Of a stretch of DNA of 64,000 nt, positions 13,821 to 30,597 are shown piece after piece. Where the stretch lies: assembly GCA_030431975.1 (NCBI GenBank), contig JAUIHP010000004.1:190001-254000 (forward strand), written 5' to 3'. Source of the DNA: a bacterium. GTDB taxonomy: Bacteria > Eisenbacteria > RBG-16-71-46 > CAIMUX01. Both the position numbers and the translations under genes were made by a program. The notes beneath the pieces were generated by a model. The model made no database searches. It was not told the DNA's origin and was given only the letters and a program-made list of their open reading frames with translations. Every line of letters starts with the position of its first letter. Positions within the stretch are counted from its first letter, which is position 1.

Positions 13821-13913
13821 CAAGTCGAAGAGCCAAGTCTGGAGAGGCCGCGTAGACGGATTCCGTCCCCAGGTTTGCTCCGTCGCACCTTGCCCTCGAA
13901 GGTCGACAGTGAA

Positions 13914-14110
13914 CTCCCGGAGGTCGGTCTCCTGGCTTGCGGGTCGTCCTAGTCCACGACTCTTCCCGATCGGTTGTCCCGGTGAGGGCTCAAGGCGAAT
14001 TGGCCTTGCTTGCCTCGTGGGGTCGATCAGTGACCACGTCGTGTTTCGTCACCGCTTACAGTGGCGGGGCCGCGTCGGATTTGCACCGACTTCCGGTGGA
14101 CCGCCGGGAG
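13914..14110 (-). promoter_or_regulatory. Cobalamin (adenosylcobalamin-type) riboswitch
   Basis: The minus strand carries the class-defining elements in order: GGTGCAAATCC followed by GCGGCCCCGCCACTGTAA (about 14045-14090), then the B12 box AAGCCAGGAGACCGACC (about 13922-13938). The closing P1 stem is CTCCCGG (14104-14110) with CCGGGAG (13914-13920), extended by CGGTC/GACCG. It lies upstream of the TonB receptor and beta-propeller genes. With cobalamin bound, such switches lower expression; here the downstream ribosome-site hairpin suggests translational control. Confidence 0.93.
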
Positions 14111-14286
14111 TGGCCCGATGTCAGTCGGGCCCGCGAACGAAAGACTTGATAGAGACCATCGGTGTCTTGGAGTCTTTCCTTCACTCGTCAGTGGGAGAAG
14201 ATGCATCCGGAGGGCGTTGGCGGTCAATGAGAATGTGACGGGGTCCTCGGACGAGTCGGAAACAGTTTTGGTCAGGAGGCTTTGCG

Positions 14287-27786: not shown

Positions 27787-29823
27787 TCACAGTTCCGCCG
27801 TGTGCAGCGCGTCCATCTTTTCCTCGACCGACTTCGGTCCGAGGCTTTCGATGAACGCGTCGAAGGCCAACTCCCCGAGCTCTCCGTCGTCGCGGGAGCG
27901 GACGTTGACCGTTCCGTTCTCCTTCTCGGAACCGCCGACGACCAGGACGTAGGGAAGCTTCTGCATCGTTGCCGCGCGGATCTTGTATCCGAGCCGGTCG
28001 TCCTGCAGGTCGCAGGTGGCACGAAGTCCCAGTGCGAAGAAGCGATTGCGCAACTCTTCTGCGTAGTCGAAGAAGGCGTCGGCGACCGGAATGATCCGGA
28101 TCTGCTCCGGCGAGAGCCAAAGCGGGAACGCACCGGCGTAGTGCTCGAGGATGATTCCGAAGAACCGTTCGAGCGACCCGTAGGACGCACGGTGAATCAT
28201 GACCGGAGTGTGCCGTGCGCCGTCCTTGCCCACGTACTCCAAGCCGAAGCGTTCCGGCATGGAGAAGTCGAGCTGGATCGTTCCGCACTGCCAGGTGCGG
28301 CCGATGGCGTCACGAATGTGGAAGTCGATCTTCGGTCCGTAGAACGCACCGTCGCCGGGATTCAGCTTGTAGCCGTGGCCGCAGTTGTCCATGACGCGCT
28401 TCAGCGCCGCCTCCGCGGTTTCCCAGACCTCGTCCGAACCGACCGATTTCGCTGGACGGGTCGAGAGTTCCAGGGCGATGTCCGAGAGGTCGAAGGCGTG
28501 GTAGATCTCGAAGAAGAAATCGATGAGAAGCTGGATCTCACCTTCGATCTGCTCGGGCGTGCAGAAGTGATGGGCGTCGTCCTGCGTGATGTGCTGCACG
28601 CGGAAGAGGCCGTGACGGACTCCGGAAAGCTCGCGTCGGTGAACCACTCCCATTTCCGCCATGCGGATGGGCAGCTCCTGATAACTGTGGAGACGGTGAG
28701 CGTAGATCTGCGTATGTCCCGGGCAGTTCATCGGCTTGACCGCCATCTGCCGGCCGGTCTCGATGTTGTCGACGACGTTGTCCGGGTCGTTCTCGTCCCG
28801 CTCTTTGAACTTGGTGAAGAACATGTTCTCCAGGTAGTTGTCGTAGTGGCCGGACTGGTGCCACATCTGATCGCTGTAGATGATGGGCGTCCGCACTTCC
28901 TGGTAGTTGCGCCGCGAGAGCTGCGCCTTCATGAACTCGACGAGCAGGTTGAAGATCTTGGCGCCCTTGTCATGGAAGAACGGCATGGCCGGGGCGTGGT
29001 CGTTGAAGTGGAAGAGGTCCAGTTGTTCGCCGAGGAGACGATGGTCCCTCTTCTTCGCTTCTTCCAGCCGCTTCAGGTACAGCTTGAGTTCGTCCTTGGA
29101 GAAGAAACAGGTGCCGTAGACGCGGGTCAGCGGCTCGCGTGAGGCATCGGCGCGCCAGTAGGCGCCGCTGGCCTTCATGAGCTTGAAGTTCTTGAGCCAG
29201 CCCGTCGAAGGGACGTGCGGTCCGCGGCAAAGGTCGATGAAGCGGCCGCTGCGGTAGAAACTGACTTCGGGCGCTTCGTCTTTGCCGGTGAAGGCGCCGT
29301 TGTCGATGAGCCCGTCCATGAGCTCTTTCTTGAACTTGTTGTCGCCGCCGTCGATGGCCCAGTACTGCTTGTAGATGTCGTCGCTCTCGGAAACGGCGAC
29401 CAGGCGTTCGAAAGAGGCGTCCTGCTTGAGCAGCTCCTTCATTCGCTTCTCGATCTTGGGGAACGACTCTTCGGTGATGCGCTCTTCGCCTTCCGGCAGA
29501 TAGATGTCGTAGTAGAAGCCGTCGTCGACGGCCGGGCCGATTGTGAGTTGCGCTTTCGGGAACTCGTCGAGAATGGCTTCGGCCATGAGATGGGCGCAGG
29601 AGTGACGGAGGGTGAAGAGACCTTCTTCATCCTTCTTCGTGATGATGCGCACTTCGTCGCCGTCGGAGAGGGTGTGGTAGAGGTCGACCTGCTTGCCGTT
29701 GACCTCTCCGATCACGGCAGCCTTGGCCAGCCCCGGGCCGATCTTCTCGGCGAGGTTCTTGACGGAGGCGCCCGCCTCGAGCTCGAACTGAGTTCCGTCT
29801 GGAACGCGAACCTGAATCGACAT
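27787..29823 (-). CDS. thrS: Threonyl-tRNA synthetase
   Basis: A 678-residue enzyme charging tRNA-Thr. The ATG at 29823 is preferred: AAGGTGA lies just upstream and the protein then begins with the TGS domain (SIQVRVPDGTQFELEAGASV). The editing/SAD domain carries HSCAH (about 83-87). The class II catalytic core contains motif 2 (RRELSGVRHGLFRVQ region), NCPGHTQIY, and motif 3 (HRASYGSLERFFGIILEHY), followed by the anticodon-binding domain (QIRIIPVADAFFDYAEEL). Full length for the bacterial family. Regulation is likely by attenuation: a Thr-rich leader peptide and terminator/antiterminator lie at 29919-30022. No T-box sequence was found. Confidence 0.97.
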   Translation of the reverse strand: MSIQVRVPDGTQFELEAGASVKNLAEKIGPGLAKAAVIGEVNGKQVDLYHTLSDGDEVRIITKKDEEGLFTLRHSCAHLMAEAILDEFPKAQLTIGPAVDDGFYYDIYLPEGEERITEESFPKIEKRMKELLKQDASFERLVAVSESDDIYKQYWAIDGGDNKFKKELMDGLIDNGAFTGKDEAPEVSFYRSGRFIDLCRGPHVPSTGWLKNFKLMKASGAYWRADASREPLTRVYGTCFFSKDELKLYLKRLEEAKKRDHRLLGEQLDLFHFNDHAPAMPFFHDKGAKIFNLLVEFMKAQLSRRNYQEVRTPIIYSDQMWHQSGHYDNYLENMFFTKFKERDENDPDNVVDNIETGRQMAVKPMNCPGHTQIYAHRLHSYQELPIRMAEMGVVHRRELSGVRHGLFRVQHITQDDAHHFCTPEQIEGEIQLLIDFFFEIYHAFDLSDIALELSTRPAKSVGSDEVWETAEAALKRVMDNCGHGYKLNPGDGAFYGPKIDFHIRDAIGRTWQCGTIQLDFSMPERFGLEYVGKDGARHTPVMIHRASYGSLERFFGIILEHYAGAFPLWLSPEQIRIIPVADAFFDYAEELRNRFFALGLRATCDLQDDRLGYKIRAATMQKLPYVLVVGGSEKENGTVNVRSRDDGELGELAFDAFIESLGPKSVEEKMDALHTAEL

Positions 29824-29918: not shown

Positions 29919-29953
29919 CAAAAAGAAAACCCCCGGGCATGACGACCGGAGGC
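29919..29953 (-). terminator. Attenuator terminator in the thrS leader
   Basis: On the minus strand CCTCCGG (29946-29952) pairs with CCGGGGG (29930-29936) across a 9-base loop and is followed immediately by TTTTCTTTTT (29929-29920). It lies about 100 bases before the thrS start and 31 bases after the leader-peptide stop. Confidence 0.85.
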
Positions 29954-29979
29954 ACGCAACATGACGTTGGCGTCCTCCG
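29947..29979 (-). promoter_or_regulatory. Antiterminator hairpin of the thrS leader
   Basis: CGGAGGACGC (29970-29979) pairs with GCGTGCCTCCG (29947-29957), leaving one bulged G, and the loop can add AAC/GTT. The CCTCCG arm is the same one needed for the terminator, so the two structures exclude each other. Region 29974-29979 is only 5-10 bases beyond the leader stop codon, where a terminating ribosome would cover it. Confidence 0.8.
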
Positions 29980-29983
29980 CGTA

Positions 29984-30022
29984 TCACCCGGTGGTGGTCG
30001 TTCCCGTATGGGTTGCAAGCAT
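29984..30022 (-). CDS. thrL-like: Threonine-rich leader peptide controlling thrS
   Basis: A 12-codon frame, MLATHTGTTTTG, with six Thr codons (ACC, ACG, ACG, ACC, ACC, ACC), four of them consecutive. It is followed by an antiterminator/terminator pair and thrS. Ribosome stalling at these codons when charged tRNA-Thr is scarce would leave the antiterminator free to form; fast reading through to the TGA would allow the terminator. There is no Shine-Dalgarno sequence, but a promoter-like pair at 30029-30058 would place the transcript start at the A of this ATG, so it may be translated leaderless. The peptide itself has no expected function. The known E. coli thr leader controls the biosynthetic operon, not thrS. 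Confidence 0.8.
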   Translation of the reverse strand: MLATHTGTTTTG

Positions 30023-30028
30023 CCGTGA

Positions 30029-30058
30029 ATCTTAGTGGAGGGCGGGCGGGGATGGCAA
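30029..30058 (-). promoter_or_regulatory. Predicted promoter of the thrS leader transcript
   Basis: TTGCCA (30053-30058) and TAAGAT (30029-30034) on the minus strand, 18-base spacer. The expected start, about seven bases past the -10, coincides with the ATG of the leader peptide at 30022. Confidence 0.5.
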
Positions 30059-30183: not shown

Positions 30184-30597
30184 ATGACCGGCGAGCAAGG
30201 GCGCTACGGCGTGACCATGAAGACGAAGCTGAGCTATGAGAAAGCCCTGGAGCGGACGGTGGACGCGCTCAAGGACCAGGGTTTCGGCGTGATCACGGAG
30301 ATCGACGTCAAGATCACGATGAAAGAGAAGCTCGATCTGGAGACCCGTCCCTACAAGATCCTGGGGGCCTGCAATCCGGCGCTGGCGCATCAGGCTTTGA
30401 CGGCGGATCCCGACATCGGACTGCTGCTGCCGTGCAACGTCATCGTTCGGGATGAGGACGACGGCGCGACGGTCGGCTTCGTCGACCCGTCCATGATGGC
30501 CGAGCTGAGTCCTAGTCCGGAGTTGGGCCAGGTGGCTCGGGAAGCTCGGGAGCGCCTCGAGAAGACGTTGGAGGCCGTCGCGGCGGCAAAGGCCTAG
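30184..30597 (+). CDS. DUF302 family protein
   Basis: A 137-residue protein. The ATG at 30184 has a strong AAGGAGGAGG site; the frame extends upstream without one. It matches DUF302: YEKALERTVDALKDQGFGVITEIDVKITM (about 19-47), LETRPYKILGACNPALAHQAL, and LLLPCNVIVRDEDDGATVGFVDP. The domain forms small alpha/beta homodimers of unknown function, sometimes in sulfur-related loci. No signal peptide. It ends inside the first base of a perfect hairpin (30597-30639). Confidence 0.85.
   Translation: MTGEQGRYGVTMKTKLSYEKALERTVDALKDQGFGVITEIDVKITMKEKLDLETRPYKILGACNPALAHQALTADPDIGLLLPCNVIVRDEDDGATVGFVDPSMMAELSPSPELGQVAREARERLEKTLEAVAAAKA

Follow-up and report, generated by a model that had tools for sequence, protein, structure and literature searches.

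Upstream of thrS, the gene for threonine–tRNA ligase, we identified a leader that we read, with a probability of about 0.88, as a ribosome-mediated transcription attenuator predicted to adjust thrS expression to the availability of charged tRNA-Thr. The gene (P0001) lies on the minus strand of the window, the 64,000-nucleotide stretch of DNA analyzed here. It spans positions 27887–29823 (the translated part; the frame continues to 27787), matches TIGR00418 with 629.5 bits, and is single-copy, with TGS, SAD, core, and anticodon-binding domains. The mechanism class is known; the thrS leader is a newly recognized conserved instance of it, whose parts, conservation, stop-codon spacing, and predicted switch are established computationally.

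The minus strand carries, 160 nt upstream of thrS, a promoter and an ORF of 12 codons, then an antiterminator arm followed by an intrinsic terminator; the Thr-rich ORF, the alternative hairpins, and thrS are all present as the preliminary description had claimed. The promoter-like site (30029–30058) combines a -35 box, TTGCCA (30058–30053), with a -10 box, TAAGAT (30034–30029), across an 18-nt spacer and is the sole such site on this strand in the region (shuffle mean 0.0). Transcription starting downstream of 29984 had been named beforehand as an outcome that would count against attenuation; the predicted promoter is instead upstream of the peptide. The leader peptide, MLATHTGTTTTG*, runs from ATG 30022 to TGA 29984 (29984–30022, minus strand), and six of its 12 codons specify Thr (ACC ACG ACG ACC ACC ACC), those at positions 8–11 being consecutive. 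At a Thr usage of 5.6%, six Thr in 11 codons corresponds to p = 1.1e-5. The four-Thr run (TTTT) is unique to the thrS leader among the 1,644 short-ORF starts of the window; these window-wide counts, together with conservation in relatives, rule out a chance Thr run.

Downstream of the peptide, the minus strand carries the elements of two alternative hairpins. The 5' arm of the antiterminator (segment 2, CGGAGGACGC, 29970–29979) starts 5 nt past the stop codon, so a ribosome parked at the stop would cover it. Segment 3 (GCGTGCCTCCGG, 29946–29957) can form the antiterminator with 29979–29970 or the terminator with 29936–29930. In the antiterminator, CGGAGGACGC is able to pair with GCGTGCCTCCG: CGGAGG (29979–29974) and ACGC engage GCGT-G-CCTCCG (29957–29947), and CAAC/GTTG lengthens the stem. 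In the terminator, CCTCCGG (29952–29946) pairs with CCGGGGG (29936–29930), followed by TTTTCTTTTT (29929–29920). The complete intrinsic terminator (29920–29952) reads CCTCCGG, TCGTCATGC, CCGGGGG, TTTTCTTTTT, and the thrS start codon, ATG 29823, is located ~96 nt downstream of its U-tract. Since both structures draw on segment 3, they are mutually exclusive, as in an attenuator. Direct folding gave the terminator -13.7 kcal/mol (z = -2.4); the automatic terminator rule missed it because its loop is 9 nt and the rule allows 8. From the start codon through the U-tract, the window leader has a folding z of -2.1.

The effect of ribosome position was modeled in nine leaders (the window and eight relatives): a ribosome footprint was placed either at the stop codon or on each of the codons in the Thr runs, and the nascent RNA was folded. 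Segment 3 was already paired with a probability of 0.80–1.00 for a ribosome on Thr codons and 0.00–0.49 for one at the stop. Averaged over the nine leaders, the difference between Thr and stop positions was 0.77 versus 0.14 ± 0.09 in controls that shuffled the sequence linking the stop codon to segment 3 (z = 7.3). The window leader also flips its end state, with terminator pairing of 0.94–0.99 at the stop and 0.00–0.66 at the Thr codons. For most relatives, the full-length RNA favors the terminator at equilibrium even with a stalled ribosome; the switch in these leaders must thus be kinetic, with the order of folding mattering. By computation alone, whether the ribosome sits on the regulatory codons or at the stop decides the fold, which is the behavior that marks an attenuator.

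From these features, we infer the transcription start, termination, and Thr response of the leader. The transcript would begin at or beside the leader AUG, and the peptide would be made with no Shine-Dalgarno sequence to guide the ribosome. Given ample Thr-tRNA, the ribosome would pass the Thr codons, reach the stop, and mask segment 2, leaving segment 3 to pair with segment 4 (the 3' arm of the terminator) and RNA polymerase to terminate ahead of thrS. A shortage of Thr-tRNA would instead stall the ribosome on the ACC/ACG codons, and the free segment 2 would capture segment 3 as the antiterminator, allowing thrS to be transcribed.

The genes flanking thrS bear on a second reading, in which the hairpin simply separates neighboring genes as an ordinary terminator or insulator and the Thr-rich frame is there by coincidence. 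In the window, the neighbor just upstream of thrS is a divergent DUF302 gene (30184–30597, plus strand). The terminator accordingly serves no adjacent co-directional gene there, which excludes its being the terminator of a neighbor in the window. The arrangement in the family mate G002 is friendlier to this reading, as an epimerase gene lies directly upstream of thrS in the same orientation, separated from it by 420 nt, a gap too small for a DUF302 gene plus leader. Against it, relatives have kept the Thr codons together with both the promoter spacing and the alternative arm, and we regard an ordinary terminator as very improbable. Elsewhere on the minus strand, the window holds a cobalamin riboswitch (13905–14120; RF00174, 83.9 bits).

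The leader set comprised nine loci: the window, G002, and seven genomes of Myxococcota. Relative to the window, ThrS is 77% identical in G002 and 63–67% identical in the seven leader-bearing Myxococcota. Outside the window phylum, the nearest ThrS proteins come from the class of Myxococcales bacterium FL481 (62–67% identity), where 7 of 17 have a Thr leader. The same four-part layout accompanies all nine ThrS of this clade, across two phyla. The encoded peptides are MLLQGQTLVATTTTTG in G002, (GTG)DIRTTTTTTDTA in FL481, and MLFASTTTTTIDTA, MFLLSTTTTTTIDTA, MTMHARIHTTTTTDSA, MHARIFMTTATTDTA, MFRAQRRLTTATTG, and the weak MYAVKAIYAMTTAG in the other Myxococcota. Thr codons are enriched at p of about 0.005 or lower in eight of the nine, window included; enrichment is clear in seven, moderate in G048 (4/13, p = 0.005), and weak in G150 (2/13), which has two Thr codons and no more. 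Segment 4 is CCGGGGG in eight leaders and GCGGGGG in G150. A scan of 60 other Polyangia regions upstream of thrS revealed the leader layout in none. One locus flagged by a loose scan (L112) was rejected: its TTT lies in a longer frame 350–400 nt upstream and its T-run hairpin at -111, and this distance between the two led us to judge it a chance match.

Segments 2 and 3 co-vary, with an A-U pair in the window and G002, an A-U pair shifted by one position in FL481, and a G-C pair in the others. Segment 4 is invariant at the covarying positions, so the terminator takes up the changes in segment 3 as G-U pairs. Covariation was counted on arms registered by hand, because a MAFFT alignment of whole leaders misplaced segment 2. 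In this hand-set register, compensatory changes are few (three cells, from three sequences, in two paired columns) and alone do not exceed shuffles, making covariation on its own weak evidence for the two hairpins. Relatives nonetheless retain the Thr-rich frame and both hairpins with these few compensatory changes, which lends support to the ribosome-mediated attenuation through a Thr-rich leader that the preliminary description had proposed.

Initiation of the leader peptide also follows a common pattern. A TAnnnT box ends 6–7 nt ahead of the leader start codon in seven of the nine leaders, compared with 1.15% in shuffles; in the window, the gap is 6 nt, and no Shine-Dalgarno sequence is evident. 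This spacing, together with the lack of an evident Shine-Dalgarno in the window, suggests that the leader peptide is probably translated from a leaderless transcript, with its start at or within 1–2 nt of the predicted 5' end. Of the remaining leaders, G162 has a 4-nt gap between the -10 box and the start codon, and G050 is an exception, having its -10-like box 16 nt from the start codon as well as an SD-like GAGGA, indicating that leaderless initiation is not universal in the clade.

A real Thr leader could also act without a terminator switch, the stalled ribosome chiefly altering access to the mRNA or its translation (by RBS exposure, reinitiation, or mRNA decay). Leaderless polycysteine leaders of mycobacteria, which are reported to affect translation, offer a precedent. 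In Streptomyces, thrL–thrS lacks a U-tract (PMC8079986), which also favors this reading. In the leader clade, however, a near-constant U-tract terminator (CCGGGGG-T4+) is present in all nine leaders, 45–123 nt upstream of thrS, and the start region of thrS is free of any conserved hairpin. We consequently hold an effect mainly on mRNA access or translation to be improbable and favor transcription attenuation.

Leader-peptide control of this general kind has several precedents. The pheM–pheST system of Escherichia coli is the classic case of leader-peptide transcription attenuation of an aminoacyl-tRNA synthetase; it resembles the thrS leader in its type of target gene and differs in its Phe codons, its SD-led leader, and the gene itself. 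E. coli thrL–thrABC (Thr_leader in Rfam) likewise combines a Thr-codon-rich leader peptide with alternative hairpins, but it regulates threonine biosynthesis and senses Ile as well, and the window leader is unmatched in Rfam. Synthetase leaders described in Streptomyces lividans include leuL2–leuS, trpL2–trpS, alaL–alaS, and a weak, leaderless thrL–thrS, and leaderless transcription is reported for several Streptomyces leaders (PMC8079986). The S. lividans thrL–thrS pair shares with our leader a short ORF of cognate codons upstream of the synthetase gene and a leaderless thrL. Compared by description, it differs in that just two of its 18 codons specify Thr, a single hairpin is present with no U-tract, and termination is unclear (PMC8079986), whereas peptides of the leader clade contain as many as seven Thr and are followed by clear alternative antiterminator and terminator hairpins. 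His leaders precede hisS paralogues in bacilli (PMC2965389).

A further Thr leader was observed in Lysobacteraceae (L165–L196), where an 8-codon frame, typically MSTTTAHR, occurs upstream of thrS in all 30 loci read, roughly 115–180 nt before the gene. A CGAGG-type arm is present in 29 of these loci and a GGCGCC-loop-GGCGC-T terminator in all 30, and the Luteimonas leader stretch was matched in 105 of 149 sampled genomes. We propose the Lysobacteraceae leader as an independent candidate thrS attenuator. No published description of a Thr leader before thrS was found for Myxococcota or Lysobacteraceae, although a survey of attenuation in aminoacyl-tRNA synthetase operons (Lopatovskaya et al. 2010, Mol Biol 44:128) may include some cases.

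The closest ThrS outside the leader clade are preceded by a different type of RNA. In the last ~150 nt before thrS of 13 such loci (L022–L024, L105–L114), hairpins just ahead of the start codon display 6–7-nt loops whose central triplet is NGU, as in tRNA-Thr anticodons (e.g., CU-CGU-AU, GC-GGU-AU, and UU-GGU-AU). By a strict rule, 8 of the 13 loci contain at least two NGU-loop hairpins, where shuffles predict 0.035; the hairpin occurs in none of the nine leader-clade genes and before 1 of 50 other Polyangia ThrS. An Rfam search of nine sister-clade leaders returned no match. In E. coli, the thrS operator is a tRNA mimic: ThrRS binds its anticodon-like hairpins and blocks translation. That operator has the same target gene and look-alikes in the sister clade but differs from the leader clade, where such hairpins are missing. 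By extension, ThrRS or tRNA-Thr might bind the leader RNA directly in the window as well, through an E. coli-type operator or a T-box-like element. The absence of the NGU-loop hairpin from every leader-clade member argues otherwise, and a search of Rfam 15 with the window leader and its relatives matched neither T-box nor any other family, so T-boxes and known Rfam leaders were dropped. Direct binding accordingly has a very low probability beside peptide-mediated attenuation. The sister-clade hairpins resemble the E. coli type of operator, which the leader clade may have lost on gaining the peptide attenuator, and the sensing system of this thrS lineage seems to have been swapped.

The ThrS phylogeny bears on the origin of the gene. 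In a maximum-likelihood tree, the nine leader-bearing ThrS form one clade with 100/100 support, nested within Polyangia ThrS, with the window and G002 sister to the seven Myxococcota; the remaining ThrS of the window's own order group in a separate clade. Among 47 sampled genomes of the window phylum, only the window genome and G002 encode this type of ThrS, and the best of the others are at most 49% identical. The arrangement is therefore rare in the phylum, as the preliminary description had suggested; its alternative wording, "undescribed", does not hold in general, given the Lysobacteraceae leader and the leaderless Thr leader before thrS in S. lividans (PMC8079986). The neighboring epimerase is 70% identical in G002, in the same gene order, whereas Polyangia homologues reach at most 44%. 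This shared epimerase and gene order make the thrS locus look native to the window family rather than a product of contamination. Taken with the tree, the neighboring genes suggest horizontal transfer of thrS together with its leader. Another family mate, G001, carries a much more distant thrS (C130:64752–66587) and yields no P0001 match at 1e-100, a pattern that fits thrS replacement inside the family. We lean toward a scenario in which, within one ThrS lineage, a leaderless Thr-peptide attenuator took the place of an ancestral operator mimicking two anticodon arms of tRNA-Thr, after which gene and new sensor were transferred together from Polyangia (Myxococcota) to the window phylum.

These results add a well-supported Thr leader on a synthetase gene in lineages for which we found no earlier report. 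They also render two modes of tRNA-Thr sensing, tRNA mimicry and ribosome stalling, comparable on close ThrS homologues, and they point to leaderless initiation of leader peptides beyond Actinobacteria.
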